DNA of 64,000 nucleotides from Photobacterium sp. CCB-ST2H9 (GTDB lineage: Bacteria > Pseudomonadota > Gammaproteobacteria > Enterobacterales > Vibrionaceae), in assembly GCF_023151555.2 (NCBI RefSeq), contig NZ_CP100425.1:1488001-1552000 (forward strand), read 5' to 3'. The stretch's first letter is position 1. Every line of letters begins with the position of its first letter. The notes below the pieces were generated by a model that did no database searches, was not told where the DNA came from, and saw nothing but the letters and a program-made list of their open reading frames with translations. The position numbers and the translations under genes were made by a program. This document shows, in pieces, positions 35,895 through 55,722 of this stretch.

Positions 35895-35904
35895 GGTTTT
35901 TCTC

Positions 35905-36681: not shown

Positions 36682-36683
36682 TA

Positions 36684-37094: not shown

Positions 37095-37112
37095 TTTGGG
37101 GTCCTGTGTAGT

Positions 37113-40694: not shown

Positions 40695-40710
40695 CGATTA
40701 GGAGACACAC

Positions 40711-41061: not shown

Positions 41062-41064
41062 GTT

Positions 41065-42774
41065 ATGACCATGATTACTCAAGCAACGGCAGCTGAACTG
41101 ACCGCATCTGACCGTTCTGAAAACTCTTTGCTGAACCGGGCGAAACAAGCCTGGTACAGCAGTCAGCGAAATCTGGTGCTGTCTGCGGCTCTGGCCGCAG
41201 TTGTTGCAGCCATTATTGTGGTTGCTTTGTGGACCTCAACACAAAGCTATCGTCCGCTCTACAGTCAGCAAGAGCGTTTTGATACCAGCGAAATTATTTC
41301 AGTGCTTGAAGCTGAAGGCATTCCATACCGTTTACAGGAAACAAACGGTCAGGTGCTGGTTGAAGACGGAAAAGTTGCTGAAGTGCGGATGCTGCTGGCA
41401 GCGAAAGGTGTCAAAGCCAAACTGCCAACCGGACTGGAGTCACTGCAGACAGATTCTTCTCTGGGAACCAGCCAGTTTATGGAAACGGCACGTTACCGTC
41501 ACGGACTGGAAGGTGAGCTGGCTCGTACCATCATTTCTATGAATGCCGTGAACAACGCCCGCGTTCATCTGGCGATTCCGCGTCAGACTCTGTTCGTTCG
41601 TCAGAACGGTGAAAAGCCAACGGCTTCCGTCATGGTTGAACTGAAATCCGGTGAGGATCTCAAGCCGGAGCAGGTGGAAGCCATCGTGAATCTGGTGTCT
41701 GGCAGTGTGACGGGGATGGCCGCCGATCAGGTTTCAGTGGTTGATCAGTTCGGTCGTCTGCTGAGTGCAGACATTGGTTCTGAGACCAATGGTCGCATGA
41801 ACACCAAGTATCTGGAATATCAGAAAAACCTGGAGAAACAAATTATCCAGCGTGCTTCTGACATGCTGACCCCATTGCTGGGTCCGAGCAACTTCCGGAT
41901 TCAGGTCGCTGCGGATCTGGATTTCAACCGTATTGAAGAAACCCGTGAAATGGTTGATAACAATCCGGTTGTACGCTCTGAACACAGTATCGAAAATAAC
42001 TCGGTCGATAAAATTGCGCTGGGTGTACCAGGCTCTCTGAGCAATCAGCCGCCAACGGTTGAAGACGATAAAAAAACAGACTCGCCGAAAAATACCAGTG
42101 AGCGCTCTGAAGTGAATCGTCAGTATGCCCTTGGCAGCAGCGTGCGTCATACCCAGTTCCAGCAGGGACAAATCAAAAAACTGAATGTTTCTGTGCTGCT
42201 GAACGATAAAGTGGCTCCAGATCAAAAGGCCTGGAATGATGCCCAGAAGGCTGAAATCAGCCAGATGATTTCTGAAGCCGTGGGTCTGAATAATGTCCGT
42301 GGTGACAGCCTGAGCCTGATGAGCTTTAACTTTAAGCCGCTGAGTATCGACCCGGTTGCGCCAATGCCTTGGTGGCAGGATACCGCGCTGCAACAACCGC
42401 TGCGTTACATCATCGGCGGTCTGCTGGGACTGGCAATGATCTTCTTTGTCCTGCGTCCGTTAATCCGTCATCTGACGGGTGTGGATAAAGCACGCCGTGA
42501 AATGGAAATTGCCAGCCTGCCGGATGACATCCTGAGTAAAGAACTGGATGAGAAGGCACAGGAAAATGAGCTGAACCGTCGTCTGTCTGACCGAGGGTTG
42601 AGCCACACCACCAATGGTCTGGACGCTGATGCTGAAATGATGTTGCCGCCTTCTGGTTCGCCTCTGCACATCCAGCTGAAGCACCTGACACTGATTGCCA
42701 GCGAAGAGCCACAGCGTGTTGCTGAAGTCCTCAAACAATGGGTGAATGGAAATGAGCAAAACCGAGACAACTAA
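41065..42774 (+). CDS. fliF: Flagellar MS-ring protein FliF (lateral)
   Basis: A 569-residue MS-ring protein with membrane spans near residues 38-58 and 448-468, a large periplasmic ring region carrying the YscJ/FliF fold (TSLGTSQFMETARYRHGLEG) and a C-terminal cytoplasmic tail that binds FliG. Starts three bases after fliE. Confidence 0.94.
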   Translation: MTMITQATAAELTASDRSENSLLNRAKQAWYSSQRNLVLSAALAAVVAAIIVVALWTSTQSYRPLYSQQERFDTSEIISVLEAEGIPYRLQETNGQVLVEDGKVAEVRMLLAAKGVKAKLPTGLESLQTDSSLGTSQFMETARYRHGLEGELARTIISMNAVNNARVHLAIPRQTLFVRQNGEKPTASVMVELKSGEDLKPEQVEAIVNLVSGSVTGMAADQVSVVDQFGRLLSADIGSETNGRMNTKYLEYQKNLEKQIIQRASDMLTPLLGPSNFRIQVAADLDFNRIEETREMVDNNPVVRSEHSIENNSVDKIALGVPGSLSNQPPTVEDDKKTDSPKNTSERSEVNRQYALGSSVRHTQFQQGQIKKLNVSVLLNDKVAPDQKAWNDAQKAEISQMISEAVGLNNVRGDSLSLMSFNFKPLSIDPVAPMPWWQDTALQQPLRYIIGGLLGLAMIFFVLRPLIRHLTGVDKARREMEIASLPDDILSKELDEKAQENELNRRLSDRGLSHTTNGLDADAEMMLPPSGSPLHIQLKHLTLIASEEPQRVAEVLKQWVNGNEQNRDN

Positions 42775-43780
42775 TCCGGCAGACATGCAAACCCTGAGCA
42801 GTGTGGATAAAACAGCACTGGTTCTGCTGGGTATGGGAGAGGACGCAGCCGCGCAGGTGCTGCGTTACTTCTCCCGCGAAGAAGTACAACGCGTCACCCG
42901 TTCAATGGCCAAACTGACCGGGATTAAAAGTGAAAATGCCAAAGTTGTAATTCAGCGCTTTTTTGATGATTTTCGTGCCCACAGTGGTATCCGGGGTGCT
43001 TCGAAAGATTATCTGTCGAATACCCTGTCGAAAGCGTTGGGGAATGATCTGGCAAAAGGTGTACTGAACAGTATTTATGGCGATGAACTGCGGAACAATA
43101 TGCAGCGTCTGCAGTGGGTCGACACTGACGTCATTGCGAAGTTCATCAGTCAGGAACACCCGCAGATGCAGGCCATTTTCCTGGCTTATCTGCCGCCGGA
43201 AACATCGTCTGAAGTACTGGCGAAACTGCCGTCGGAGCAGCATGATGAGCTGATTTACCGGGTGGCACGCCTGAATGAGATTGATCATGAAATCGCGCAG
43301 GATCTGCATCAGCTGATCGACCGTTGTATCCAGCAGGTGTCTGGCGGACATGGTGCGTCGGTGATGGGTGCCAAGCAGGCTGCCGACATTATCAACCGCT
43401 TTGAAGGTGATCGTGCTCAGTTGATGGAAATGCTGAAGCTGCACGACGAGAAAGTGGTCAGCGAGATCGAAGAGAACATGTTCGACTTCGTGATTCTTGC
43501 CCGTCAGCGCGAAGCAACCATGGACCGTCTGGTTCAGGAAATTTCTATCGATATGTGGGCAACCGCACTCAAAGGTGCAGATCTCAAACTGCAGATGGCG
43601 ATCAAACAGTCGATGCCACAACGGATGGCAAACTCGCTGGACGACGAAATGGCCATGCGTGGTGCCATGCCGCTCTCCCGTGTTGAGAAGGCTCGTCAGG
43701 AGATCATGCAGATCGTCCGTGAACTGGCTGATGCCGGTGAAATCGAACTGAGTCTGTACCAGGAACAAACAGTGGAGTAA
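42746..43780 (+). CDS. fliG: Flagellar motor switch protein FliG (lateral)
   Basis: A 344-residue rotor protein. The middle EHPQMQAIFLAYLPPE motif and the C-terminal torque helix (FDFVILARQREATMDRLVQE then IDMWATALKGAD) are intact, including the conserved charged residues facing MotA. It overlaps the fliF end by up to 29 bases; the start could be ATG 42746 or ATG 42752 (MSKTET). No strong ribosome site, consistent with translational coupling to fliF. Confidence 0.93.
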   Translation: MEMSKTETTNPADMQTLSSVDKTALVLLGMGEDAAAQVLRYFSREEVQRVTRSMAKLTGIKSENAKVVIQRFFDDFRAHSGIRGASKDYLSNTLSKALGNDLAKGVLNSIYGDELRNNMQRLQWVDTDVIAKFISQEHPQMQAIFLAYLPPETSSEVLAKLPSEQHDELIYRVARLNEIDHEIAQDLHQLIDRCIQQVSGGHGASVMGAKQAADIINRFEGDRAQLMEMLKLHDEKVVSEIEENMFDFVILARQREATMDRLVQEISIDMWATALKGADLKLQMAIKQSMPQRMANSLDDEMAMRGAMPLSRVEKARQEIMQIVRELADAGEIELSLYQEQTVE

Positions 43781-43783
43781 GCG

Positions 43784-44605
43784 ATGCGTTCAGTTAAAGT
43801 GATGCGCCTGAATCCGGGTGAATACCGCTCTCATCGTTTTCCTCCGATGGTCAAGCCAATGATTCAGGGCACCGATGATGAATCTCAGGACCTGAATCAT
43901 CTGGCTGAAGAGCCTCAGTTTAATGCCCAGGAGCATCAGGCTGCGTTGCAGAAACGTCTGGAAGATGGTTTCCAGCAGGGGTTGCAGCAGGGTCATGAAG
44001 AAGGTCTTCGTCAGGGCGTGGAGCAGGGCCGCCAGCAGGGTTTCAATCTGGGGCAGCAGGATGGCTTTCAGCAAGGTTATGCCAAAGGTGAAAGCCAGGG
44101 CCGTGAAAAGTATGAATCTGTGATGGCCCCGCTGCATGCGCTGCAGGCGCATATTCAGCAATGGCAGGACGAGCGTGAGCACGCACAACGTGAGCAGATT
44201 TGTTCTCTGGTTCAGAAAGTCGCTCAGCAGGTCATTCGTGCCGAGCTGACACTGATGCCGCAGCAGATCCTGGCGCTGGTCGATGAGACGCTCGACAGCA
44301 TGCCCGGAAACGCGGACAAGGTGATTGTGCACCTGAACCCGCAGGATCTGGAGCGGATCAACAACCTGAATCCGAAGCTGCATCCGAGCTGGAAACTGGT
44401 AGCGGATAAAGAAATGCCGATCGGCGGTGTGCAACTGGTGACTGACCAGGCTGAAGCAGACGCCAGCAGCGATGCACGGCTGGAAGCCTGTATGGAAACC
44501 CTCCGTGAACATCTTCTGGAATCCACAAATGGTTCGCAATTAGTGACCGATGTGAAGTCAGAAGAGGTATCTGCCACAGAGCGTGTGGAGGAAGTCAGTG
44601 AGTGA
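43784..44605 (+). CDS. fliH: Flagellar assembly protein FliH (lateral)
   Basis: A 273-residue export-ATPase regulator. Its middle carries the FliH glycine-repeat helices GxxxG-type run (GFQQGLQQGHEEGLRQGVEQ and following GRQQGFNLGQQDGFQQGYAK), and the C-terminal domain resembles the V-ATPase E stalk. It binds FliI and docks it at the C-ring. Three bases after fliG. Confidence 0.92.
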   Translation: MRSVKVMRLNPGEYRSHRFPPMVKPMIQGTDDESQDLNHLAEEPQFNAQEHQAALQKRLEDGFQQGLQQGHEEGLRQGVEQGRQQGFNLGQQDGFQQGYAKGESQGREKYESVMAPLHALQAHIQQWQDEREHAQREQICSLVQKVAQQVIRAELTLMPQQILALVDETLDSMPGNADKVIVHLNPQDLERINNLNPKLHPSWKLVADKEMPIGGVQLVTDQAEADASSDARLEACMETLREHLLESTNGSQLVTDVKSEEVSATERVEEVSE

Positions 44606-45941
44606 CAGCGCATTTCATGAACGTATGAATGATGCGATTGCGTCGATGTCATCCATACCGATTGCCCGGGTGACCGGGCGGTTGGTGAAAGTCAACGGTC
44701 TGATGCTTCAGGCCGTTGGCTGCAAATTCAGACTGGAACAACGCTGCCTGGTCGAAACCGATGACGGAGAAGCAATCGAAGCTCAGGTCGTTGGTTTTGA
44801 CCGGGATGTCGCATATCTGATGCCGGTACGCCAGCTGGGCGGTTTATATGCCGGCGCCAAAGTCATTCCGCTTGATGGCGACAGTACAGTTGCATTGGGC
44901 GAGCATTGGCTCGGCAGGGTCGTGAATGGCCTTGGCGAGCCTTTTGACGATCTGGGCCCACTGAAAGGGGGCGAGAAAGTTTCTCTCAATCCTCAGCCGA
45001 TTAACCCGATGAAGCGCCGGATGGTCGATACCCCCTTAGATGTGGGTATTCGCGCCATGAACGGCCTGCTGACGCTGGGTAAAGGTCAGCGCATCGGTCT
45101 GATGGCCGGCAGTGGTGTGGGTAAGAGTGTGTTGATGGGCATGATCACCAAAAACACCAAAGCTGACATTGTCGTGGTCGGGCTGATTGGTGAACGGGGT
45201 CGTGAGGTTCGCGAGTTTATTGAGCGGAACCTGGGTGAAGAAGGGATGAGGCGTGCGGTGGTGATTGCTGCACCTGCGGATGAATCTCCTCTGATGCGCC
45301 TGCGCGCGACCAAGCTTTGCCATCGTGTTGCCGAATATTTCCGGGATAAAGGGAAAGACGTCCTGTTGTTGATGGATTCACTGACCCGTTATGCCATGGC
45401 GCAGCGTGAAATTGCTTTGTCTCTGGGCGAACCACCGGCTTCCCGGGGTTATCCGCCTTCAGTGTTTGGTCAGTTACCGCAATTACTGGAACGTGCCGGT
45501 AACGGTGAACACCCGGACGGCAGTCTGACGGCTATTTATACCGTTCTGGCGGACGGGGATGATCAGCAGGATCCTGTGGTCGACTCTGCCCGGGCTATTC
45601 TGGATGGCCATGTGGTGTTGTCGCGTTCACTGGCAGAGCAGGGGCACTATCCGGCGATTGATATTAATGCATCGATCAGCCGTTGTATGAGCAGTTGTAC
45701 CGAAACTTCGCATGTTACGGTGGCAAACCGTTTTCGACAGCTGAATGCGAATTATCTTCAGGTGAAAGAGCTGCTGCCGCTGGGGGGTTATCAGCCAGGG
45801 CAGGATCCAGAGCTGGATCTGTCGGTGCGGATGTTCCCGTTACTGAAAGACTTTTTGGTTCAACAGGTGGACGAAGTGACGGATTACCAGCAGTCGTTGG
45901 TTCGTCTGGCCGAATTATTTACCCAGACACAGCAAGGCTGA
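44598..45941 (+). CDS. fliI: Flagellum-specific ATPase FliI (lateral)
   Basis: A 447-residue F1-beta-like ATPase. Walker A GSGVGKS at about residue 171-177, Walker B VLLLMDSLTR at about 256-265 and the conserved GERGREV are visible. It energises loading of export substrates with FliH and FliJ. I start at GTG 44598, which has GGAGG six bases upstream and an overlap with the fliH stop; the frame is open further upstream from another GTG but without a site. Confidence 0.94.
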   Translation: MSDSAFHERMNDAIASMSSIPIARVTGRLVKVNGLMLQAVGCKFRLEQRCLVETDDGEAIEAQVVGFDRDVAYLMPVRQLGGLYAGAKVIPLDGDSTVALGEHWLGRVVNGLGEPFDDLGPLKGGEKVSLNPQPINPMKRRMVDTPLDVGIRAMNGLLTLGKGQRIGLMAGSGVGKSVLMGMITKNTKADIVVVGLIGERGREVREFIERNLGEEGMRRAVVIAAPADESPLMRLRATKLCHRVAEYFRDKGKDVLLLMDSLTRYAMAQREIALSLGEPPASRGYPPSVFGQLPQLLERAGNGEHPDGSLTAIYTVLADGDDQQDPVVDSARAILDGHVVLSRSLAEQGHYPAIDINASISRCMSSCTETSHVTVANRFRQLNANYLQVKELLPLGGYQPGQDPELDLSVRMFPLLKDFLVQQVDEVTDYQQSLVRLAELFTQTQQG

Positions 45942-45954
45942 CAAGGAGCGGGCA

Positions 45955-46389
45955 ATGAAAGGAAAACTGAAAGCTGTCAGCCAGCTTCAGCAAATTGCTG
46001 AGCAGCAGCGAGACCGTCAGGGCCAGGATTTAGCCCGTCAGCAAGAGCAGGTTGGTTTCTTTGCTCAACAGCTGGAAGCACTGGCTGACTTAAAATCCGG
46101 CAGTCTTCCGGAAGGAGTCGGCGGGGTCAACCCGATTGCATTGCAAAACACCACGCAGGTCAATGCAATGCTCAATCGCCTGATCGCTCATCAGCAGCAC
46201 GAAATGGCGCTGATGCATGCAGAAAGTCAGCGGACCAAAAAAGCGCTGGAGCAAAGCCAGATCAAAGTGAAAGGTCTGGAAACCGTCATGGAACGCTGGA
46301 AAGCTAAACAACGGTATGAGCAGGCCAGAAAAGAGCAAAAGTTTATTGAAGATTTGATCAACGCCAGATACAAACGTCCATCCATTTAA
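45955..46389 (+). CDS. fliJ: Flagellar export protein FliJ (lateral)
   Basis: A 144-residue coiled-coil protein, the general chaperone/central stalk of the export ATPase. Start follows AAGGAG. Heptads run through most of the length and the end is basic (EDLINARYKRPSI). Last gene of the motY-fliJ operon, followed by a terminator. Confidence 0.9.
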   Translation: MKGKLKAVSQLQQIAEQQRDRQGQDLARQQEQVGFFAQQLEALADLKSGSLPEGVGGVNPIALQNTTQVNAMLNRLIAHQQHEMALMHAESQRTKKALEQSQIKVKGLETVMERWKAKQRYEQARKEQKFIEDLINARYKRPSI

Positions 46390-46418
46390 AAAGCGCCCTC
46401 GGGCGCTTTTATTTTTTT
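46389..46418. terminator. Terminator after fliJ
   Basis: AAAAGCGCCC (46389-46398) pairs with GGGCGCTTTT (46401-46410) followed by T-rich sequence. It ends the motY-fliJ operon and can also serve the convergent RhtB gene. Confidence 0.9.
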
Positions 46419-46432
46419 GAAGTGAAAAAACC

Positions 46433-47065
46433 TCAGGCCGCTTCTTTATAGAATGCTAACCCCGACGCCATCGCGACCAACACGGAAGCACAGGTTTTGT
46501 TGAGCGATTTCAGGCGGCTGACCGATAAATACTTTGCCGCCTGGAAACCTGCAGTTGCGTAAACCAGCATCACAGCGACATCAATCACGATGGTAGCAAT
46601 TGCGAAAAGAACGTATTGCATCAAAACCGGCGCGGTTAAATCCAGAAACTGAGGCAGAAAAGCGCCGAAGAACAGGAGCCCCTTCGGATTAGACAGGGCC
46701 GCGAACAGGCTGCGCCGGAACGCTGCTGCAGGGCTGTGTACTTGTGCGCTTTTGAGTTTGTCAGCCGTCAACGCGCTGGCTGAAGGTGTACTGCGCCACA
46801 ACTGGTATGCCAGCCACAGCAGGTAAGCAACGCCGCAATATTTGACGGTCAGAAAGAGGGTTTCAGAAGCCGCCATTAATGCCCCCAGTCCCAGTCCGGC
46901 AGCACTGATCAGAATCGCGTCAGACAGAGCAGCCCCTAGAATGCCATAAAGTACAATTTTCTTGTTTTTACTCACACCGTTCGACAGAGACAACAGCATG
47001 GTCGGTCCCGGAATGACGGTCACGGTAAATGAAGCGATGCAATATAGAAGTAATGTACTGACCAT
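46433..47065 (-). CDS. LysE/RhtB family amino-acid exporter
   Basis: A 210-residue inner-membrane exporter of the LysE/RhtB family, with about six hydrophobic segments and the family opening TVTVIPGPTMLLSLSNGVSK (about 9-28). Members pump out amino acids such as homoserine, threonine, lysine or toxic analogues, driven by the proton gradient. I start at ATG 47065 (MVSTLL); an ATG at 47107 would add 14 hydrophilic residues. It is divergent from the cupin-trpB operon and shares its promoter region and palindrome, so a link to that pathway's product is likely but inferred. Confidence 0.85.
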   Translation of the reverse strand: MVSTLLLYCIASFTVTVIPGPTMLLSLSNGVSKNKKIVLYGILGAALSDAILISAAGLGLGALMAASETLFLTVKYCGVAYLLWLAYQLWRSTPSASALTADKLKSAQVHSPAAAFRRSLFAALSNPKGLLFFGAFLPQFLDLTAPVLMQYVLFAIATIVIDVAVMLVYATAGFQAAKYLSVSRLKSLNKTCASVLVAMASGLAFYKEAA

Positions 47066-47173
47066 GGTGGAAGAATACTCCAAGTGAATTTGAATCATTT
47101 GATGCAATGCCAGGCATCATATTGAGTCAAGAGTTAACAAACCTAACGCACAGCGCATAGTTGCATAAAATTC

Positions 47174-47203
47174 TTGACACGGCAACGATGATATCCCTAC
47201 TAT
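47174..47203 (+). promoter_or_regulatory. Sigma70 promoter of the aromatic-amino-acid operon
   Basis: TTGACA at 47174-47179 (full -35 match), an 18-base spacer and TACTAT at 47198-47203. It points into the cupin-trpB operon; the palindromic operator begins 12 bases downstream and would cover the start point. Confidence 0.75.
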
Positions 47204-47214
47204 GAGCGCAAATC

Positions 47215-47240
47215 AAACTAGTGAACTAGTTCGCTAGTTT
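47215..47240. promoter_or_regulatory. 26-bp palindromic operator
   Basis: The half-site AAACTAG(T)GAACT is followed by its reverse complement AGTTC(G)CTAGTTT; only the bracketed pair fails to match. The centre is AACTAGTT. Its position over the expected transcription start implies repression by a dimeric regulator (TetR, MarR or similar size class). No regulator gene for it is in the window. Confidence 0.85.
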
Positions 47241-47378
47241 TAATTCGATGAGTCTCACAACATTGATTCTGTTTTCACATCTGCTGGCAGACGTCAGCGT
47301 ATTCCGCGGAACGTGAAACACGAGTTGTGTTCGTCATCACATTGACTCTGTATTGAATGGAATTTGAGAGGAGAAAAG

Positions 47379-47711
47379 ATGAAGACCTATGACGAGGTTG
47401 TATTTCAAGCGGCAAATCAAGATTGGGAAAAATGGTCAAAGCCGGGCGCTGATGGCCGGGTGAAAATTTTCAATTCAAACGGAAAGCGCTTAAGAATGCT
47501 TGAATTGCCAGCTGGGTTTGATGAGCACCATCTTTGTGAGATCGGTCATCAGGGATATGTTCTGACCGGAAGCTTTACTATTTTTGTTGAGGGTACCGAA
47601 AATAAATGTCACCCAGGTGATTTTTTCTCAATCCCGGATGGTGTGCCTCACCGTTCGAAAGGGGATGAGAATGAAGTGACGACAGTTTTCGTTGTTGATG
47701 ATATTCAATAG
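47379..47711 (+). CDS. Cupin-domain protein
   Basis: A 110-residue single-domain cupin. Motif 1 is DEHHLCEIGHQGYVLTGSFT (about 49-68), motif 2 HPGDFFSIPDGVPHRS (about 77-92), so a metal site from two His, Glu and a later His is probable. Single-domain cupins may be isomerases, dioxygenases or stabilising helpers in aromatic pathways; no specific reaction can be called. AGGAG lies five bases before ATG 47379, which I prefer over the ATG at 47364. First gene of the operon; nine bases from the TrpB-like gene. Confidence 0.85.
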   Translation: MKTYDEVVFQAANQDWEKWSKPGADGRVKIFNSNGKRLRMLELPAGFDEHHLCEIGHQGYVLTGSFTIFVEGTENKCHPGDFFSIPDGVPHRSKGDENEVTTVFVVDDIQ

Positions 47712-47720
47712 GAGCGACAG

Positions 47721-48926
47721 ATGAAAAACCCTGCTTTTGCCAATTTAATCCCAGATCAAAATGGAATGTTTGGCGTCTACGGCGGTGAAGCCGAAAATTC
47801 AGAATTAAAGTCAGCGATGAATGAGGTCAGAGAAGCATTCTATCACATCATTCAAGATGACTTATTCAATGAAGAAATGACACGGTTACGTAAAACCTAT
47901 ATCGGACGACCAAGTCCCATTTACTTTGCAAAGAACCTTTCTGAGAGAATTGGCGGAGCAAAGATATACCTGAAACGTGAAGATTTAAATCACACGGGTG
48001 CCCATAAAATTAACCACTGTATTGGTGAAGTTCTGCTTGCAAAGAAAATGGGCAAGAAAAAAATATTAGCTGAAACGGGTGCAGGACAGCATGGTGTTGC
48101 TCTTGCGACTGTTTGTGCTTTGATGGGCATGGCATGTGAAATCCATATGGGGCAGGTCGATATTGAAAAAGAACGCCCTAATGTGAATAAAATGAAATTG
48201 CTGGGATGCAAAATTGTTCCTGTAACTTCGGGTAAGGCGACTTTAAAAGAAGCAGTCGATAGTGCATTTTCGGCATATCTGGATGATATGCAGAATAACT
48301 TTTTTGCAATCGGCTCCGTTGTTGGTCCTGCGCCTTACCCGGAGATGGTGCAATATTTTCAATCTGTCATTGGAAGAGAGGCATCTGCCCAGTTTCTGGA
48401 GATGACAAATGAACAACCGACAATCGTTGCGGCTTGTGTCGGTGGCGGCTCAAATGCATTAGGCTTATTCAGCGGTTTTCTGTCAGATGAAAACGTGAAG
48501 TTAGTGGGAGTTGAAGCTGCGGGTAAAGGATTAGATTCAGGAGAACATGCCGCGACCCTAACAGCAGGTAAATTCGGAACAATGCACGGATTTAAATGTT
48601 TATACCTGCAAGAAGAGGATGGTACTCCGATGGATGCCCATTCCATCGCTTCAGGATTAGATTATCCCGGTGTCGGTCCACAACATTGTTATTTAAGAGA
48701 TGCTCAGCGGGTTGAGTATCATTCAATTACAGATGATGAATGTATTGAAGCCTTTTTAACTTTGTCCAAATATGAAGGAATCATCCCCGCATTAGAAAGT
48801 TCTCATGCGATTGCATGGGCTGCAAAAGAAGCTAAAAATTTATCATCTAAAGAATCCATCCTGGTTAATCTTTCAGGAAGAGGTGATAAAGATATCGATT
48901 TTGTGCTTCATAAAGTTGGGTTGTGA
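47721..48926 (+). CDS. Tryptophan synthase beta-like enzyme (TrpB homologue)
   Basis: A 401-residue PLP enzyme of the TrpB1 type. The catalytic set is intact: Lys96 in GAHKIN, Glu118 in AETGAGQHG, the phosphate loop GGGSN (241-245), Asp314 in GLDYPGVGP and Ser385 in LSGRGDK. It should replace the hydroxyl of serine with a nucleophile. Two oddities: no trpA lies nearby, and the N-terminal FGG-Y-VPE segment, which helps form the TrpA interface, reads [12 protein letters not shown]. The usual KINN is KINH. I infer that it accepts a nucleophile other than TrpA-channelled indole. It abuts the UbiD-like gene (one base). Confidence 0.88.
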
Positions 48927-48927
48927 A

Positions 48928-50304
48928 ATGAGTTTCGATCTGCGGGCTGTGCTGAATCAATTGGAAGGTTCAGGTGTCAGCATCAAGACGGTTGGTGATT
49001 TCATGTCACCAACTTATGAGATACCTGGCCATTATATGAATAACGCAGCAACCGTACCTGGTTCAGGAAAAACAGGTCATGAGCAAGCTTACATATACGC
49101 CAATAACGGCACTCAATTTCCGGTGTTAATGGGGTTATTTGGGAATAGAGAAATCAATCGAAAGATTCTGTCCGAAAGTTGTTTCAGAGATGACAGTTTA
49201 CACTGTAAGGATTTAAGTCCGGTATGGGTTGATAAGCCTGTCTGTCAGGAAAGTCATTTTCAATTAGATTTGCTCTCATTACCTGCTCTTAAAGTAACAC
49301 CACAGGATGCAGGCGCATTTTTTACATCAGGTGTCGTTTGTGCAAGGCACCATAAAACCGGTGCCTATACCAGTTCTATTCATCGATTGAAAGTTGTAGA
49401 TAAAAGTCATGTGACTTTAGCCCTACGGCCTGGAAGTGGGCTTTTCAGCTGTTACCAAGAAGCTTTGAAACAAAATAAAACTCTGCCAATCTCGATTTGT
49501 ATTGGTATACCCCCTGTATACTATTTGCTCACTTCATTATCGACAGCCAGATTCTCATCAGGTATCTGCAAACTGAAAGAGATGAGTAAAGTAGTTGGCC
49601 AGGCCGTTCGAATTGCGAAAAACGTTACAAATTCAGCTTATTGTTACGCAGACAGTGAGATTGTCATTGAAGGGGAAATGACAACGACAACTTGTAATGA
49701 AAGCAATAGAAAAGCAGAGGCATACTCAATGCCGGAGTTTCTTGGCTACATGGGGGAGGCAAAAGAAAATCTTCCGCTCGTTAAAATCACAGGCATCTTC
49801 CACAGAGAAAATCCGATCTATCAAACATTTTTAGGTCCGGGAAAAGAACAGTCAGAGCTGCTTGCGATTCCGACTGAGATCTCTTTGAAAGAAGTTGTCA
49901 GGAAAGAATTCGATCAATTTTTTGATTTAATGGATGTGTATTGTCCCAGTTATGGTGGCGGGCAGCTGTCAGTCATCTTAAGTATCCGGAGAAAGTCACA
50001 TTTCATTCCATTTTCAGAATTAAGAGATTTTATTTACGAGCACCATCCGCTTTGTAAGCATGTATATGTTGTTGATGACGACATCGATCACTTGTCAAGT
50101 GAGGATTTTTTATGGGCAATGACAACCAGGTTTCAGGTGTCGCAAGATACTTACTTGAGAAAAGTGCCGGGCTTTATCATGGACCCGTCTCAATACACCG
50201 GTTATATGAATTCAAAAGATCCAGAAAGTGATTTGACATTATATGACTTAACCAAGCCATTGAAAATATCAAACAGGTTTGTTCGGTATCAGCAAATATT
50301 ATAA
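48928..50304 (+). CDS. UbiD-family decarboxylase
   Basis: A 458-residue UbiD-family protein (prenylated-FMN-dependent (de)carboxylase). Family features: NNGTQFPVLMGLFGNRE (about 60-74), TGAYTSSIHRLKVVDKSHVT (about 145-162, the prFMN/metal region), SEIVIEGEM (about 243-251) and VKITGIFHRENPIYQTFL. The loop normally reading PEGPFGE is shortened to PEFLGYMGE, so the catalytic acid needs modelling. No UbiX flavin prenyltransferase is in the window; a chromosomal one could serve. I start at ATG 48928 directly after the trpB stop; longer frames run into trpB. Likely role: removing a carboxyl from a chorismate-derived aromatic intermediate. Confidence 0.82.
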   Translation: MSFDLRAVLNQLEGSGVSIKTVGDFMSPTYEIPGHYMNNAATVPGSGKTGHEQAYIYANNGTQFPVLMGLFGNREINRKILSESCFRDDSLHCKDLSPVWVDKPVCQESHFQLDLLSLPALKVTPQDAGAFFTSGVVCARHHKTGAYTSSIHRLKVVDKSHVTLALRPGSGLFSCYQEALKQNKTLPISICIGIPPVYYLLTSLSTARFSSGICKLKEMSKVVGQAVRIAKNVTNSAYCYADSEIVIEGEMTTTTCNESNRKAEAYSMPEFLGYMGEAKENLPLVKITGIFHRENPIYQTFLGPGKEQSELLAIPTEISLKEVVRKEFDQFFDLMDVYCPSYGGGQLSVILSIRRKSHFIPFSELRDFIYEHHPLCKHVYVVDDDIDHLSSEDFLWAMTTRFQVSQDTYLRKVPGFIMDPSQYTGYMNSKDPESDLTLYDLTKPLKISNRFVRYQQIL

Positions 50305-50313
50305 AGGTGAATC

Positions 50314-50616
50314 ATGGAAATTAATCAGTTAGAAATTCTTCGTGAAGAAATCAATCAGATAGATGTTCAGCTTGTAGAACTACTGGTAAAAAGAGCGAAT
50401 GTTGCATTACAGATAGCAGATCAAAAGCGGAATAGTGTTGATGTCGTAGAAGCAAAAGGACGAGTAGAGATCGTTTTAAGTAAAGTGAGAGAATTAGCGT
50501 TGAATTTTCACGGGGATGATAAGTTTATTGAATCTGTTTATAAGGTAATCATTCATGAGTTAACACAAATGCAGCTGATCAAAAAGGGACTTATCAATCA
50601 TGACATCAATGGTTAA
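50314..50616 (+). CDS. AroQ-fold chorismate mutase/pyruvate-lyase-like protein
   Basis: A 100-residue all-helical AroQ-class protein. Active-site Arg10, Arg27, Lys38 and Arg50 align with E. coli chorismate mutase, but the Glu after the third Arg is Val51. An Arg-Val there, with FIESVYKVIIHELTQMQLIK following, matches isochorismate-pyruvate lyase (PchB) better than a true mutase. It may rearrange or eliminate pyruvate from chorismate, isochorismate or an amino-deoxy form. It is too short to be a bifunctional P- or T-protein. It overlaps the B3/B4 gene by 17 bases. Confidence 0.8.
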   Translation: MEINQLEILREEINQIDVQLVELLVKRANVALQIADQKRNSVDVVEAKGRVEIVLSKVRELALNFHGDDKFIESVYKVIIHELTQMQLIKKGLINHDING

Positions 50617-51307
50617 TTACTCAAAAGATATCGTTGACCTTTTACCTGAACTGCATGTTTGCTGTCTTCGAATTGAGAATCTTCATGATCGTGTTGATGT
50701 GACAGATTCTGTGAATGAAAATATTGTCTTTGCAAAGCAAACAATCGATAAGTTGCAGACAGAAAGCGCAATTGACTCTATCAGTCACTGGCGTCGAGCT
50801 TACAGAAAAGCAGGGATAGAGCCGACAAAATTTCGAATGGCAGCTGAATCATTACTGAGACGGCTCAGAAAGCAAGGTAATTTACCAGAAACATTACACC
50901 CGTTAGTTTTAATTTGTAATGCATTGTCAGTTAAGCATTGTTTACCTATTGCTGTGCTGGATACAGATGAAATCAACGGAAATTTATGGGTTTCCTATAC
51001 AAAGGGAGGTGAGCGTTATTTAGATTTTAATGGGAACGAAATTTTAATGCCCTCGAATGAAGTTTCATTTATCGATGAGAAAAATAATGCGCATGCCAGA
51101 AAGTGGTCTCATAAGCAAAGTGGTTTATCTGTCGTTAGAAACAGCACCCAAAATGCAATTATTATTATAGAGGCTTTATCTCCACTCCAAAATAATGAGA
51201 GTTTGCCAGTCATTGAAGAGTTGAAAAGTTTGATTGACAAGTATTGGCCTGGTTCAATCGCTGAGTGTAGTATCAGACATTCAAATATGCTTATCTCGAA
51301 TTATTAA
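50600..51307 (+). CDS. B3/B4 tRNA-editing-domain protein
   Basis: A 235-residue stand-alone homologue of the B3/B4 editing domain of the phenylalanyl-tRNA synthetase beta subunit (HWRRAYRKAGIEPTKFRMAA, LVLICNALSVKHCLPIAVLD and RYLDFNGNEILMPSNEVSFI are the family landmarks). In PheRS this domain hydrolyses tRNA(Phe) carrying wrong aromatic amino acids. Placed inside an aromatic amino-acid operon, it may clear mischarged tRNA formed by the product. That is inference; some B3/B4 proteins have unknown roles. ATG 50600 or 50609 could be the start. Confidence 0.85.
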   Translation: MTSMVNYSKDIVDLLPELHVCCLRIENLHDRVDVTDSVNENIVFAKQTIDKLQTESAIDSISHWRRAYRKAGIEPTKFRMAAESLLRRLRKQGNLPETLHPLVLICNALSVKHCLPIAVLDTDEINGNLWVSYTKGGERYLDFNGNEILMPSNEVSFIDEKNNAHARKWSHKQSGLSVVRNSTQNAIIIIEALSPLQNNESLPVIEELKSLIDKYWPGSIAECSIRHSNMLISNY

Positions 51308-51421
51308 AATTTATCTTAACCAATTCTTTATTGGCTGATGTCTATTTAGGTATTCAAAAAGTTTTACTTATTGGCCCACATAATTTCTCAAATTGTTGAG
51401 TTTTTTCATGTTGAGGTCAAA

Positions 51422-52075
51422 ATGAAAGCTGTAATCATATCAGGTTCAGAAAGAAGAAATGGTGTTACCGCTTATGTTTCTGAACTTATTCAGGATAAGT
51501 TGTATGAGAAAAATGTCCATGTAAATGTTATATATCTGTGCGATAAGAAAATATCTGCTTGTGATGGCTGTGGTGGTGACAATGGTTGCAACTATAGACA
51601 GTCTCCCTGTGAAAAATATGATGACATGCCACATATTATTAAAATGATGTGCGAGTCAGATATTATTATTTACACATGTCCAGTTCATGCTTTCGGGATT
51701 AGTCACTTAATGCAGATTTTTCTTGAAAGAGCTGGTGTCGGATATCTGAGGTTTGATCGGCCTCTCGTGAATAAAATTGGTGGCTGCGTCATTGTTGGGA
51801 GGAAATATAGTTTAGGCAGTGCACATGATCAAATCATAAATAACATGCTATTAAATCGAATGATTATTCCTGGTGCTGGATTTCCAGTGCTTATCCATGG
51901 CTGTGAAAAAACGAAGGGAATTACAGACATTGAGGAGAGTGTTGCTTTGGAGCAAATGGTTGACAGATTAGTTGAAATCCGAAGTTCTGTGAATGTGAAT
52001 GCATTAAATTTTAATCATCCAAATGAAAGAAAGCTCAAAGAAATCATGGAGAAAGATAGTGAAAGGGTTAATTGA
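51422..52075 (+). CDS. Flavodoxin-fold NAD(P)H:FMN reductase with Cys cluster
   Basis: A 217-residue flavodoxin-like protein: FMN phosphate loop SGSERRNGVT (7-16), TCPVHAFGISHLMQIFLERA (split around 82-102) and GAGFPVL. Cys47, Cys50, Cys56 and Cys63 sit in ACDGCGGDNGC then PCEKYDDM, close to the cluster motif of iron-sulfur flavoproteins but with wider spacing. It could supply electrons or reduced flavin, possibly to the UbiD-family enzyme. Start ATG 51422; a 114-base gap precedes it and it overlaps the TrpE-like gene by 17 bases. Confidence 0.82.
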   Translation: MKAVIISGSERRNGVTAYVSELIQDKLYEKNVHVNVIYLCDKKISACDGCGGDNGCNYRQSPCEKYDDMPHIIKMMCESDIIIYTCPVHAFGISHLMQIFLERAGVGYLRFDRPLVNKIGGCVIVGRKYSLGSAHDQIINNMLLNRMIIPGAGFPVLIHGCEKTKGITDIEESVALEQMVDRLVEIRSSVNVNALNFNHPNERKLKEIMEKDSERVN

Positions 52076-53558
52076 AGTTATCAGCCATACTGAAAAAGTC
52101 ATCTCAGACAATGACTCGATCTGTATTTATAACCAGTTGCGAAAGAAATATCATGAAGATGAGTTGTTTCTGCTCGAGTCAATGACTGGTCCAGAAAAAG
52201 ATTGCAAAAATACAATCATTGCGTTTGAACCTATTTTTAACTTGAAACTCAATGATAATGTCCTGTCTTTATCTGGGAATGAAGATATTCTTGGTTTGAT
52301 GAGAGTGAGTGATAAATTATCATCTTTTGAGTTCCTAGATGAGTACTCCATTCAGATTCAGACGTTTAACGATCTGATTTCACTCTTAAGAAGTATTGAG
52401 TCATTATTTCATGTCGTTGATGAAGGGGTGAGTACAAGTACAAACTTCGGATTCTGGGGTTACTTTGGATACGATACTATTTTTCTCATAGAGGATATCG
52501 AGAGAAAAATATCAAGAGATAAAAATTTATCTACGATTAATCTGACTATATTTTCAGGCGTCATCAATCTTGATATAAAGAGTCACACCATACATTTAAC
52601 CCGAAATCAGAGCAATTATTTTCAAAGTTTCGATCTTTCATTAGTGAAAAATCTCATTAAAACGCCATTTCATTATGAGTTTAACCACAATTTTTCCAGT
52701 CATAGTATTTCATCTCCCACTGTCGATAAAGAGATGTATACGACCTGGTTTGATAAAGCCAAAAGTCATATCGATATTGGTGATATATATCAAATCCAAT
52801 TGGGGCATGAAATAAATATAACGTCAGAAATAATACCATTTGATGTTTACTTACGATTGCGTCAATTTAACCCATCACCCTATATGTATTATTTTAAAAC
52901 ATCTGATGGATTTCATGTGATTGGAGCAAGTCCGGAAATGTTTGTGACTTTAACCAATGACCGTGAAATTGTGATGAGACCAATTGCGGGTACAATCAGA
53001 AACTCGTCTGATCCAGATGAGAAAAAGTCAAATATTCATAAGCTGCTCTCGGATGAAAAAGAAAATGCAGAGCATTTGATGCTGGTTGATCTCTGTCGAA
53101 ATGATATCTCCAGAATTTGTGAACCTGTTTCACTATTTGTTGATGAATTGATGATTACAGAAGAATACTCACACGTGATTCATATTGTTTCTAATGTTAT
53201 TGGGAAGATTTCAGCACAATTTGATAAATACGATGCTTTAGCCGCTACGTTTCCTGCAGGCACGATGACGGGAACACCAAAAATAAAGGCAACGGAAATT
53301 ATTGAAGACACGGAGAGGACCTCAAGAGGCATTTATGCAGGGTGTGTGGGGTATTTAGGGTTTAATGACACAATTTTGTCTGCACTTTGTATTCGGACGG
53401 CAGTTTACAGAAATGGTGTCTATACGATTCGTGCTTCCGGAGGGATCGTTGAAGATTCCCTGAGCCATGGCGAGTGGTCTGAAACAATCAGCAAACTCAG
53501 TTCGACTTATTTTGCAATCACCAACAAGGATTTAATCAGTGAAGATTTTATTAATTGA
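52059..53558 (+). CDS. Anthranilate synthase component I-like (TrpE family)
   Basis: A 499-residue chorismate-utilising enzyme. N-terminal LLESMTGPEK, then a C-terminal core with NPSPYMYY, RPIAGT (308-313), ENAEHLMLVDLCRND (about 335-349), GTMTGTPK (about 408) and GGIVEDSLSHGEWSET. Ala in PIAGT, rather than Lys as in PabB, indicates amination at C2 (anthranilate or 2-amino-2-deoxyisochorismate type) rather than para-aminobenzoate. The LLES motif hints at a retained effector site. I start at GTG 52059 with GGAG seven bases upstream. Coupled to TrpG by a 20-base overlap. Confidence 0.86.
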   Translation: MKGLIEVISHTEKVISDNDSICIYNQLRKKYHEDELFLLESMTGPEKDCKNTIIAFEPIFNLKLNDNVLSLSGNEDILGLMRVSDKLSSFEFLDEYSIQIQTFNDLISLLRSIESLFHVVDEGVSTSTNFGFWGYFGYDTIFLIEDIERKISRDKNLSTINLTIFSGVINLDIKSHTIHLTRNQSNYFQSFDLSLVKNLIKTPFHYEFNHNFSSHSISSPTVDKEMYTTWFDKAKSHIDIGDIYQIQLGHEINITSEIIPFDVYLRLRQFNPSPYMYYFKTSDGFHVIGASPEMFVTLTNDREIVMRPIAGTIRNSSDPDEKKSNIHKLLSDEKENAEHLMLVDLCRNDISRICEPVSLFVDELMITEEYSHVIHIVSNVIGKISAQFDKYDALAATFPAGTMTGTPKIKATEIIEDTERTSRGIYAGCVGYLGFNDTILSALCIRTAVYRNGVYTIRASGGIVEDSLSHGEWSETISKLSSTYFAITNKDLISEDFIN

Positions 53559-54120
53559 TGCGTATGACAGCTTTGTTTATATCGTCAAAAATTATATTGA
53601 AGTGATTGGCTTTCAAACTGATGTCGTTCGGTGTGATAAAGTCAATCTTGAATCGTTGAATGACTATCATGCTATTATTCTGGGGCCTGGGCCCGGACAC
53701 CCATGTGAGAGTGGTTACCTGGATATCATCAGGCGGGTTGAAGGAAAAATTCCGATTTTTGGTATTTGCCTTGGAATGCAATCGATTGCGGAGTTTTATG
53801 GTGTTTCAGTGAAACCGGCTGTAAACCGTGTGCATGGAAAGGTGAGTTTGATTGAACATGATCAAATGGGCTGCTTCCAGCAATTGAAGTCACCCTTAAA
53901 AGTCACCCGATATCATTCACTGATTGCATCAAGAGACGATATTAAATCGGATTCGGAATTAGTCATTACCTCTGAATCTATTGATGACAACTACATCATG
54001 GGTATTCGACATAAAGCGTTTGTGATCGAAGGGGTTCAGTTTCATCCTGAAAGCATATCGACTGAACGGGGTGCAGACATATTAATCAACTTCTTTAAGC
54101 ATGCAGGACTATACAATTAA
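53539..54120 (+). CDS. Anthranilate/aminodeoxychorismate synthase glutaminase (TrpG/PabA)
   Basis: A 193-residue class I glutamine amidotransferase. The catalytic triad is present: Cys77 in GICLGMQ, His169 and Glu171 in VQFHPES; DAYDSFVYI and ILGPGPGHP are also typical. It delivers ammonia from glutamine to the TrpE-like partner. GTG start at 53539 overlaps that gene's end by 20 bases, so the two are made together. Last gene of the operon; the terminator lies 277 bases on. Confidence 0.88.
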   Translation: MKILLIDAYDSFVYIVKNYIEVIGFQTDVVRCDKVNLESLNDYHAIILGPGPGHPCESGYLDIIRRVEGKIPIFGICLGMQSIAEFYGVSVKPAVNRVHGKVSLIEHDQMGCFQQLKSPLKVTRYHSLIASRDDIKSDSELVITSESIDDNYIMGIRHKAFVIEGVQFHPESISTERGADILINFFKHAGLYN

Positions 54121-54396
54121 TATGTGTATGATTTGTACCTTTTCATGTATTTGCTGAATGCATTTATCAGACTTGTTTCCTATTAAATTCTAATATGCAA
54201 TTGGTATGTTTACGGGGCAGACAATACTGAATATTTTTATACATAGATTTAATATCAGTAAAAATACGGACGCTTTAATTTATTGCTACCTGAGTACCGT
54301 GAAGGTTGTTGTTAAGCCAATCACACAGTCTTCCCAAGCGGTACGCAATAGCGCATATCCTGTTCCCATTAGGAACATTTTCACCACTATTTGTTT
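54121..54396. other. Untranslated region after trpG
   Basis: 276 A+T-rich bases before the operon terminator. TGTTCC-cattA-GGAACA at 54361-54377 is a small inverted repeat. No gene supported. The long leaderless tail could contain a small RNA or be ordinary 3' UTR. Confidence 0.4.
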
Positions 54397-54428
54397 ACCC
54401 GGTATCTTTTTGGTATCGGGTTTTTTTT
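54397..54428 (+). terminator. Intrinsic terminator of the aromatic operon
   Basis: ACCCGGTATC pairs with GGTATCGGGT (10 bp with two wobble pairs) around a TTTTT loop, followed by eight T residues. Confidence 0.92.
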
Positions 54429-54443
54429 ATGTACTGAACATGA

Positions 54444-54470
54444 AAAAGCACAGCGGAAAGCTGTGCTTTT
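54444..54470. terminator. Bidirectional terminator before the OFA transporter end
   Basis: AAAAGCACAGC (54444-54454) pairs with GCTGTGCTTTT (54460-54470), five-base loop, T tract on both strands. It lies 23 bases past the MFS stop codon on the - strand. Confidence 0.92.
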
Positions 54471-54492
54471 ATTCTTGACTGACGTGCTGAAA

Positions 54493-55722
54493 TCAGGCGT
54501 TTGCCAGCTTGTTCTGAAGTGCCTGAATATTGACGGGCTTGGTCATGAAGGCAAGCAAAACGGCGACTCCCAGCATTACGGAACACAGCGTATACGCCAA
54601 TGTGTATGTACCGGTCATATCAACTGCGACAGCAGCAACGACAGGGCCGATGAAGCCACTGATTCCCCAGGCTGTATACAGGACACCGTAGTTGGCACCA
54701 TAATTTTTCAGGCCGTAGAAGTCAGCAGTAATCGACGGGAAAACGGCCAGCAGTGTGCCATAGCCGACACCTGCAACTGCGGCACCGACCATCAGGCTGA
54801 ATTCATTGTCGAAAGTTGCAAACATCACCATGTTGATGGCTTGCATGACGAAGGCTATCAGCAGGGTTTTCACGCCGCCGATCTTATCGGAGAGCATTCC
54901 TGCGACGACCCGGCCACCCGAGTTAAAGACAGCCAGAATCACCACAAGGAAAGCGGCGTCAGATAAATCAGCCTGTGTGGCTGCGATTGAAGTAATGTTC
55001 CCTATGATCATCAGACCGGCAGCTGAAGCGAACGCGTACATGATCCACAGCGAATAAAACTGCGGGGTCTGGATCATCATACGCCAGCTGACATCAACAC
55101 TCGGTGTTTGCGCAGCTTTTGCGGTCGTTGCAGTGGGCGCGGCTGGCACATAGTCTTCCGGCGGGTTTGTGATAGTGCATGCCAGCGGAACAGCGACCAC
55201 CAGAACTGCGATGCCAAGAATCAGAAAACTTTGATTGATCCCGAAGTCAGCAATCAGAGATGCAGTCAGAGGGGCAAGATAAACCGCCGCCAGACCGAAA
55301 CCAGCGGCAATCAAACCATTCACCATTCCTTTTTTAGACGGGTGAAACCATTTCATCGCCGATGGGCTCAGACAGGCATATCCAAAGCCAATGCCGCTGC
55401 CTGTCAGTACGCCGAAAGTAAGGACCAAAAGCAGCGGGCTGGTTGCAAAGCTGGAAATGATCATCCCCAGCCCAACCATCGTCGTTCCTAACAGCAGGAC
55501 TTTACGCGGACCGATTTTATCCTGAAGAATACCGGCCAGTAACAGAGACAGTGAAAAGGTAATGATAGCGACCGTGTAGGGCAGGGATGCATCAGCATTA
55601 GACCACCCCAGATCAACAACCAGCGCTTTCTTGAAGACGCTCCAGGCATACAGAATGCCCATGCACAAGTTTATACAAAAGCCAGCCAGCAAGATTTGCT
55701 TAGCACGATCGAATGTTTTCAT
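54493..55722 (-). CDS. OFA-type MFS transporter (oxalate/formate antiporter family)
   Basis: A 409-residue MFS protein with 12 hydrophobic segments. FCINLCMGILYAWSVFKKAL at the N-terminus and GFGYACLSPSAMKWFHPSKKGMVNG (spans about 105-130, reported in two parts) are hallmarks of the OFA (oxalate:formate antiporter) family; E. coli YhjX is a relative. Substrates in the family are small carboxylates such as oxalate, formate or pyruvate. I start at ATG 55722 (MKTFDRAK), with GAGAGG close upstream. It is convergent with the aromatic operon and looks like native chromosome. Confidence 0.85.
   Translation of the reverse strand: MKTFDRAKQILLAGFCINLCMGILYAWSVFKKALVVDLGWSNADASLPYTVAIITFSLSLLLAGILQDKIGPRKVLLLGTTMVGLGMIISSFATSPLLLVLTFGVLTGSGIGFGYACLSPSAMKWFHPSKKGMVNGLIAAGFGLAAVYLAPLTASLIADFGINQSFLILGIAVLVVAVPLACTITNPPEDYVPAAPTATTAKAAQTPSVDVSWRMMIQTPQFYSLWIMYAFASAAGLMIIGNITSIAATQADLSDAAFLVVILAVFNSGGRVVAGMLSDKIGGVKTLLIAFVMQAINMVMFATFDNEFSLMVGAAVAGVGYGTLLAVFPSITADFYGLKNYGANYGVLYTAWGISGFIGPVVAAVAVDMTGTYTLAYTLCSVMLGVAVLLAFMTKPVNIQALQNKLANA

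Follow-up and report, generated by a model that had tools for sequence, protein, structure and literature searches.

Why should a bacterium with a complete tryptophan operon carry, elsewhere in its genome, a second set of genes for TrpE-, TrpG- and TrpB-type proteins, and why should these be interleaved with a decarboxylase, a cupin and a tRNA-editing domain? The question is raised by a locus of Photobacterium sp. CCB-ST2H9 (contig NZ_CP100425.1, positions 1,488,001 to 1,552,000; this whole stretch of 64,000 nucleotides is the window, and coordinates refer to it), in which eight plus-strand genes spanning 47379–54120 encode, in this order, a cupin, TrpB, UbiD, an AroQ/PchB-like protein, a B3/4 protein, an FMN_red protein, a TrpE-like protein and TrpG. 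The answer proposed here is that this laterally acquired operon, apparently controlled by TrpR, would make a non-proteinogenic aromatic L-amino acid. The core of this reading is considered probable, namely that a nucleophile from the 2-amino-2-deoxyisochorismate (ADIC) branch would be decarboxylated and joined to serine by TrpB, with trans-editing of tRNA as self-protection. A fuller version is put forward tentatively: the branch formed by ADIC and 3-O-enolpyruvoylanthranilate (OPA) would supply an aminophenol-type nucleophile, TrpB and serine would turn it into an antimetabolite resembling Trp, Tyr or Phe, tryptophan starvation would release its synthesis through TrpR, and tRNA editing would protect the maker. 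That the exact nucleophile is 2-aminophenol is more doubtful still.

Gene content and organization of the locus

Families were assigned by the curated cut-offs of Pfam and finer classes by those of NCBIfam, all scores being given in bits. Nine Pfam families pass at 46433–54428 (LysE, Cupin_2, PALP, UbiD, CM_2, B3_4, FMN_red, Chorismate_bind and GATase), in agreement with an earlier prediction, made from the sequence of this DNA, as to both the families and their places. The features considered below are as follows.

46433–47107, minus strand: LysE/RhtB-family amino acid exporter, divergent (PF01810, 104 bits), a resident gene beside the presumed insertion
47066–47378, plus strand: presumed inserted leader region (DNA alignment to L086, from the related genome G019, ends at 47065 and starts again at 54248)
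47174–47203, plus strand: predicted promoter of the sigma-70 type, TTGACA-N18-TACTAT (10 of 12 consensus positions matched)
47215–47240, plus strand: tandem overlapping palindromes resembling TrpR operators, just 3' of the -10 box (pattern match)
47379–47711, plus strand: small cupin, putative member of the pathway (PF07883, 32 bits)
47721–48926, plus strand: TrpB1-type pyridoxal phosphate (PLP) enzyme, with no TrpA in the operon (TIGR00263, 539 bits against a cut-off of 392)
48928–50304, plus strand: predicted UbiD-family decarboxylase dependent on prenylated flavin mononucleotide (prFMN) (PF01977, 135 bits; rift domain)
50314–50616, plus strand: AroQ-fold chorismate mutase/PchB-like enzyme (PF01817, 57 bits)
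50600–51307, plus strand: free-standing B3/4 editing-domain protein (PF03483, 59 bits against a cut-off of 29)
51422–52075, plus strand: predicted SgcG-type ADIC dehydrogenase with flavin mononucleotide (FMN) and an iron–sulphur cluster ([Fe-S]) (PF03358, 62.5 bits; 37% over 211 amino acids to SgcG)
52059–53558, plus strand: predicted SgcD-type ADIC synthase, TrpE-like (38.7% over 481 amino acids to SgcD; clade support 96/99)
53539–54120, plus strand: TrpG-like glutamine amidotransferase partner (PF00117, 163 bits)
54397–54421, plus strand: terminator-like hairpin 3' of the operon, in resident DNA just past the presumed insertion

Three start sites were revised, to ATG 48928 for UbiD, ATG 51422 for FMN_red and GTG 52059, after GGAG, for the TrpE-like protein. 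The junctions from cupin to TrpG then measure +9, +1, +9, -17, +114, -17 and -20 nucleotides, the 114-nucleotide gap lying between B3/4 and FMN_red. The description of these genes as mostly overlapping was thus too strong, since overlaps occur at three of the seven junctions, with gaps of 1–9 nucleotides at three and the one long gap. Lying between the promoter and the terminator-like hairpin, the eight genes read as one predicted operon, and a second hairpin at 46389–46410 ends the upstream flagellar genes. Promoter-like sites number 27 against 22.8 in shuffles, and terminator-like sites 6 against 5.9; with no excess of either, promoter and terminator are single-site judgements. An Rfam scan of 45800–55000 gave no match.

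Recurrence of the gene set

A pattern scan with the UbiD alignment, covering one genome for each of 84,980 species, led to three confirmed loci. In two of them, those of Mixta theicola (L003) and Herbaspirillum sp. ASV7 (L004), all nine families lie within about 8 kb, in differing gene orders, so the search of other genomes that the original prediction had proposed did find the same set. The third (L005, UbiD 30% identical) has none of the other eight families on its 12.9 kb record. Identities between the Mixta and window proteins are 73% for TrpB, 60% for TrpE, 63% for TrpG, 64% for FMN_red, 50% for UbiD and 52% for the chorismate mutase-like protein. The joint presence of nine families in two of three loci points to more than chance. 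Protein-database linkage, inferred from the equal size of the longest contigs (transcribed by hand, among the best 120 of 1845, 129 and 7998 matches), places UbiD with FMN_red on five contigs, UbiD with TrpB on seven, and all three on three contigs of 9,282, 41,592 and 780,416 bases. A chance cluster was rejected on this recurrence and linkage.

At the limits chosen, such UbiD proteins are rare. They occur in 1 of 60 genomes (the own genome plus 59 relatives), in 5 of 398 in the phylum and in 5 of 329 in the window's family; in each of the last two counts the window's own genome is the only close match, the other four being weak (1e-93 to 1e-103). Among 399 genomes of the Herbaspirillum order, Herbaspirillum itself is alone (1e-110). 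The scans of the phylum, the Herbaspirillum order and the window's family scored at most four candidates per genome. Similarly, for FMN_red among 392 genomes of the Mixta family, Mixta itself is alone (1e-20).

Two side observations concern the spread of these proteins. A weaker UbiD subfamily (1e-93 to 1e-103; L007–L010 and L015–L019) occurs in genomes elsewhere in the order and family. In addition, FMN_red proteins of Ochrobactrum, Dyella, Serratia and Cysteiniphilum (P0139, P0143, P0144 and P0147) are 53–67% identical to that of the window, among the best 120 of 129 matches; the best 120 of 1845 UbiD matches are mostly nameless, and those with a name include a single protein from these four genera, of Serratia, at 33%. 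Perhaps they have a variant pathway with another decarboxylase.

A probable ADIC branch at the head of the pathway

Against SgcD the TrpE-like protein reaches 331 bits, versus 184 bits against the resident TrpE, to which it is 36% identical, and it passes no NCBIfam cut-off among the 25 families shown of 26 (best 374 versus 518 bits). A tree was made of 13 proteins, comprising the three cluster TrpEs, four SgcD-type proteins and six resident paralogues of the three genomes. In this tree the cluster and SgcD-type proteins form one clade (support 96/99) apart from the six paralogues, with the branching order inside the clade not settled, and the motif QxQ(L/I)GH occurs in all seven members of the clade and in none of the six paralogues. 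Anthranilate or p-aminobenzoate as first product was considered and rejected, since the protein sits with SgcD and reads PIAGT, versus P(I/M)KGT, which we take to be the PabB type, in three of the six resident paralogues. TrpG is 40% identical to the SgcD partner and 38% to the resident TrpG. SgcD yields ADIC without cleavage of pyruvate, according to PMC10098953. Membership of the SgcD clade implies that the first step should give ADIC, not anthranilate; TrpE-like protein and TrpG together should thus convert chorismate to ADIC. The amination of chorismate that had been proposed for this pair is supported by families and context, with ADIC, in place of anthranilate, as the expected product.

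The dehydrogenase points in the same direction. Its homology to SgcG (the reference being sgcG of the C-1027 producer Streptomyces globisporus) is near full length, the Herbaspirillum protein giving 46% over 181 amino acids. Four cysteines shared with SgcG, C47, C50, C56 and C63, are invariant in ten of ten aligned FMN_red proteins, and two FMN_red matches (P0228 and P0234) are labelled 2-amino-4-deoxychorismate dehydrogenase by a source. What had been called a flavodoxin-fold reductase is therefore kept in the FMN_red family, its role being reassigned by homology to that of an SgcG-type ADIC dehydrogenase. As described in PMC10098953, SgcG, with FMN and [Fe-S], turns ADIC into OPA, after which an acyl-adenosine monophosphate (AMP) ligase closes benzoxazolinate. 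A tblastn search confined to the 64 kb window and to L003 and L004, of 21 kb each, turned up no relative of this ligase, and the positive control, L021, was recovered at 75%. Kinship to SgcD and SgcG without the ligase suggests that ADIC or OPA is the point at which the operon departs from the known branch.

Proposed coupling to serine and protection of the producer

The operon TrpB is 49% identical to the resident TrpB and retains the motifs of K96 and E118, which are presumably the PLP lysine and the catalytic glutamate. The GPHP signature reads GPAP in this protein, and its nine best matches (P0242–P0250) have Ala, Ser or Val for His; we read the loss as lost coupling to TrpA or an altered pocket. 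The solved relatives include a tyrosine synthase that was engineered from TrpB. One cluster-type TrpB, P0246, has Ala where the other printed rows have the catalytic Glu of AETGAGQHG.

By Pfam, TrpD, TrpC/F and TrpA are not among the genes of the operon. The resident trp operon is complete and in order (DAHP synthase, Chorismate_bind, GATase, Glycos_transf_3, IGPS+PRAI, PALP and Trp_syntA), and seems to start with the gene for 3-deoxy-D-arabino-heptulosonate 7-phosphate (DAHP) synthase at G000:C1:2284859-2285926 (L041 859–1926). A spare TrpB is thus not needed for tryptophan, and the operon is not simply one for tryptophan synthesis. The Herbaspirillum cluster has a TrpB2-class enzyme in place of TrpB1 (TIGR01415 at 632 bits, cut-off 519; trpB at 137 against 392). 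The use of two distant TrpB types in this position is an argument that coupling to serine is what the pathway requires. The joining to serine that had been claimed for TrpB is in this way supported by family and context, the substrate joined being conjectural.

The B3/4 protein is 46–49% identical to the Mixta copy and 39% to that of Herbaspirillum. Its solved matches are three: a designed repeat protein (6e-9, with no single stretch significant), CtdA (3.9e-6) and another B3/4 protein (7.8e-6). By analogy, a deacylase of tRNA mischarged with the product is predicted. A lone editing protein in a biosynthetic operon is best explained by self-protection, in which case the product must be an amino acid that a tRNA synthetase mistakes. 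That the product is an amino acid, as first proposed, would thus agree with both families and context.

The middle steps and the proposed route

Between these two ends stand three proteins whose chemistry is harder to assign. A profile of the three cluster chorismate mutase-like proteins matches the Escherichia coli chorismate mutase (44 bits) and PchB (36 bits); the window's protein itself is below all NCBIfam cut-offs shown (isochorismate lyase, 33 versus 126 bits), and its AlphaFold model, with a predicted local distance difference test (pLDDT) score of 63, was not used. The residues R14, R31, K42 and Q90 of PchB, which we take to be important ones, are kept in all three cluster proteins. 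At the position of E. coli chorismate mutase E52, which presumably binds the C4-hydroxyl of chorismate, all three have Val, as PchB does; this fits a substrate lacking the C4-hydroxyl, such as ADIC.

For UbiD, the nearest solved structures are AroY-type 3,4-dihydroxybenzoate decarboxylases (5.1e-45). In AroY, R188, H327, K363 and H436 form a putative catechol-binding motif and E289 is the catalytic acid, as stated in PMC5656893. All four motif positions are changed in the operon protein, to Ser, Gln, Gln and Phe, and its E270, the counterpart of AroY E289, is invariant in 20 of 20 aligned proteins. Changed contacts and a kept catalytic Glu suggest an active enzyme whose substrate is probably not a catechol. 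UbiX, which makes prFMN, was found in all three cluster genomes. As to the earlier suggestion that PchB-like protein and UbiD reshape and decarboxylate the intermediate, decarboxylation has the support of family and context, and both steps are still conjecture.

The cupin is the best conserved of the eight plus-strand families across the three clusters (72–74% identity to Mixta, 61% to Herbaspirillum), with E49, C53, H57, Q58 and H91 invariant in all three. Its AlphaFold pLDDT is 77 in the best of five models and 34–46 in the other four.

Taken together, these assignments suggest the following route. Chorismate and glutamine would give ADIC through the TrpE-like protein, as its SgcD clade suggests, and TrpG, and the SgcG-like flavoprotein, judged by homology, would convert ADIC to OPA. 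The enolpyruvyl group would then be taken off by the PchB-like protein and/or the cupin, giving 3-hydroxyanthranilate, a step that is a guess. UbiD would remove the ring carboxylate to leave 2-aminophenol, and TrpB would join this to serine, the result being an amino-hydroxyphenylalanine or else an N-linked isomer; in both cases the family suggests the class of reaction and the substrate is guessed. Finally, B3/4 would hydrolyse tRNA mischarged with the product, which the resident LysE may export. Two other courses were rejected on chemical reasoning: a new indole route, as the pyruvyl group would end up para to the amine after a Claisen shift of ADIC, so that the indole ring cannot close; and the corresponding shift of OPA, which as an aryl enol ether lacks the allyl part.

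Candidate control by TrpR

The operator pattern has three matches, all at 47215–47240, against 0.15 expected, and 1 of 100 shuffles reached three. Across the 5.17 Mb genome, the sole place matching GNACTAGTNNNCTAGTNC without mismatch lies in the resident trp operon's promoter region; the sole cluster with one mismatch is the operon promoter at 47215–47240. The assumed TrpR consensus is thereby supported by a site about 180 nucleotides before the DAHP synthase gene of the resident trp operon. The genome has trpR (91 bits, cut-off 27), and Mixta has a site with one mismatch 5' of its FMN_red-TrpE-TrpG unit (L003 7262–7279). Judged by these candidate operators, the operon is apparently in the TrpR regulon; being part of the inserted DNA, the site seems to move together with the operon. 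In Herbaspirillum, a gene for a MocR-like regulator (L004 5888–7336; 214 bits, below the cut-off of 320) is divergent to the cluster.

Probable insertion into the flagellar neighbourhood

The eight operon genes have 34–44% guanine plus cytosine (GC), with 0.30–0.40 at third codon positions (GC3). LysE has 51% and 0.57, as in the flanks, where LysE, a major facilitator superfamily gene, fliI and fliG range over 51–55% and 0.57–0.58; fliJ, beside LysE, has 50% and 0.53. Clusters elsewhere are likewise poorer in GC than their surroundings, with 0.343 versus 0.499 in Mixta and 0.469 versus 0.64 in Herbaspirillum. A search for LysE in 40 genomes (the own genome plus 39 relatives) found one close copy, 89% identical, in G019; matches in 19 other genomes are 31–38% identical for the places listed. 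The G019 locus (L086) aligns to window positions 62997–54248 and 47065–46389, with about 160 bp between and without any of the eight genes. This empty site defines an inserted block of about 47066–54247 with LysE on the resident side, and on this comparison the eight genes are read as a horizontal insertion. Neither this insertion, nor the candidate TrpR operators, nor the full set of resident trp genes figured in the original prediction. The G019 assembly is 81% complete, but the locus is contiguous there. LysE-family genes adjoin all three clusters.

Further observations concern the neighbourhoods. At the G019 empty site (L086 10019–11383) an additional 454-amino-acid gene, not in the window, lies between LysE and fliJ, and the spot seems variable. 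The Mixta LysE gene (L003 7597–8213) is broken across two reading frames, and a piece of a phage-integrase gene on one side of the Mixta cluster (L003 2352–3245), with transposase/integrase-core genes on the other (12774–13888), suggests a mobile island. In the window, the flagellar block at 31607–46389 has two orientations, with FHIPEP and FliP on the minus strand and MotY_N, a sigma-54 activator and FliF to FliJ on the plus strand; we liken it, as an assumption, to a lateral flagellar system. Viral contigs yielded no relative. On plasmids, UbiD gave 44 records, all below 60% identity (the 20 listed at 30–32%), and the cupin no match.

Evidence against the proposed route and alternative explanations

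Several observations weigh against the serine-coupled route. For the removal of the enolpyruvyl group we know of no precedent. AroQ-fold enzymes carry out pericyclic reactions of dihydroaromatic ethers and OPA is aromatic, so this step is at odds with AroQ-fold chemistry, and the kept PchB residues suggest ADIC itself as the substrate, in competition with the SgcG-like step. The cupin is without an assigned role. The TrpE tree came with warnings of long branches, including that of the Herbaspirillum cluster TrpE, and of unlike composition in the window and Mixta rows; one resident Herbaspirillum paralogue, with QVQIGQ, comes close to having the SgcD motif. The operon TrpB is 66–67% identical to TrpBs of Amphritea (among the best 120 of 7998 matches); these bear the ordinary name, so it might still use indole. 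Nor is the GPAP-type signature specific to clusters, His being absent in 35 of the 120 listed TrpBs; of the 26 His-less ones past the nine best, one (P0349) is linked to UbiD by equal contig size. With regard to control, the TrpR pattern was picked after the site had been seen, and a reversed control pattern has 85 and 94 matches versus 10 and 9 for the pattern itself, for which reason two-mismatch matches are background. A second Mixta site, before the cupin (8336–8353), has three mismatches, near chance level, and the Herbaspirillum cluster has no TrpR-type site within two mismatches. The divergent LysE/RhtB exporter of the original prediction is indeed present on the minus strand, but it is a resident gene, which occurs without the operon in G019. 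Lastly, G019 may record a loss rather than a gain in the window.

The main rival, which we consider unlikely, is a mutase route, in which a [3,3] shift of ADIC by the PchB-like protein is followed by aromatisation to 4-amino-3-carboxyphenylpyruvate by the SgcG-like enzyme, loss of the carboxylate through UbiD and conversion to 4-aminophenylalanine by a host aminotransferase, leaving TrpB a side role. TrpE/TrpG, the chorismate mutase-like protein, FMN_red and UbiD would then fit one chemically sensible line; the retention of the four PchB residues with loss of the chorismate mutase E52 suits ADIC, which has no C4-hydroxyl, and an editing domain derived from phenylalanyl-tRNA synthetase suits a Phe analogue. 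Yet TrpB would be jobless although kept in all three clusters and swapped for TrpB2 in one, no aminotransferase is among the Pfam families of the operon, and a shorter route to 4-aminophenylalanine is known. It is this persistence of TrpB, even through a swap of type, that makes a serine-derived side chain preferable to one from a [3,3] shift.

Less likely again is an aniline route, whereby the PchB-like protein splits ADIC into anthranilate and pyruvate, UbiD converts anthranilate to aniline and TrpB adds serine, ending in 4- or 2-aminophenylalanine or N-phenyl-diaminopropionate. PchB does a like reaction on isochorismate, and its residues are kept; SgcD has no lyase activity of its own according to PMC10098953. 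Against this, the SgcG-like dehydrogenase and the cupin would be useless, yet both are kept in all three clusters, and anthranilate is already supplied by the resident trp operon. Very improbable is the view that the operon encodes spare or product-resistant enzymes of tryptophan/aromatic metabolism, which would belong to the trp regulon and serve tryptophan supply only. TrpR-type operators and a TrpB near ordinary TrpBs speak for it; the operon, however, has no TrpD, TrpC/F or TrpA beside a complete resident trp operon, its TrpE is of the SgcD type, and UbiD, the SgcG-like enzyme, cupin and B3/4 are out of place in tryptophan synthesis. Least probable is a product derived from OPA and resembling benzoxazolinate, tailored by TrpB and UbiD; in its favour, SgcD and SgcG homologues occur together as in the sgc cassette, but the searched DNA holds no relative of the ring-closing ligase, the control being positive. 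The serine-coupled route is therefore retained as the preferred reading.

Significance and comparison with known systems

No described pathway with this gene set was found by searches of PubMed Central full text, judged by titles and the opening lines of abstracts (subscription papers and preprints lying outside the search), in line with the original prediction; the words chorismate mutase, tryptophan synthase and decarboxylase are absent from PMC10098953. We call the operon a new variant of the ADIC/OPA branch. If the reading is true, it would add a new route from chorismate to a free amino acid, and its TrpB would be a natural one acting on a non-indole substrate, a goal of enzyme engineers. 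One laterally moved operon would combine biosynthesis with tryptophan sensing and with tRNA proofreading as self-protection, and a free-standing B3/4 protein would have a likely producer role. With homologues in unrelated bacteria, the eight genes form a compact, testable unit.

Among known systems, the SgcD-SgcG-AMP ligase cassette of C-1027 (lidamycin) and the xsb/pbz cassettes share with the operon an ADIC synthase with a TrpG partner and an SgcG-type dehydrogenase; the operon lacks their acyl-AMP ligase and instead has cupin, PchB-like protein, UbiD, TrpB and B3/4. The canonical trpEGDCFBA operon likewise has TrpE-, TrpG- and TrpB-type proteins and a TrpR-type operator, but the locus described here is without TrpD, TrpC/F and TrpA, its TrpE is SgcD-type, and the true trp operon lies elsewhere in the genome. 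The AroY protocatechuate decarboxylase shares family and catalytic acid (Glu289) with the operon UbiD, whereas all four catechol contacts differ; PchB and the AroQ chorismate mutases share their family, and PchB its four residues, with an operon protein that stays below the NCBIfam cut-offs shown. Finally, the canavanyl-tRNA(Arg) deacylase CtdA resembles the operon B3/4 in being free-standing, of similar size and encoded beside genes for the antimetabolite concerned. CtdA is a proven deacylase for a non-proteinogenic amino acid, which speaks for the predicted editing role; it is tied to degradation, however, whereas the operon protein, of low similarity to it (3.9e-6), is tied to presumed synthesis.

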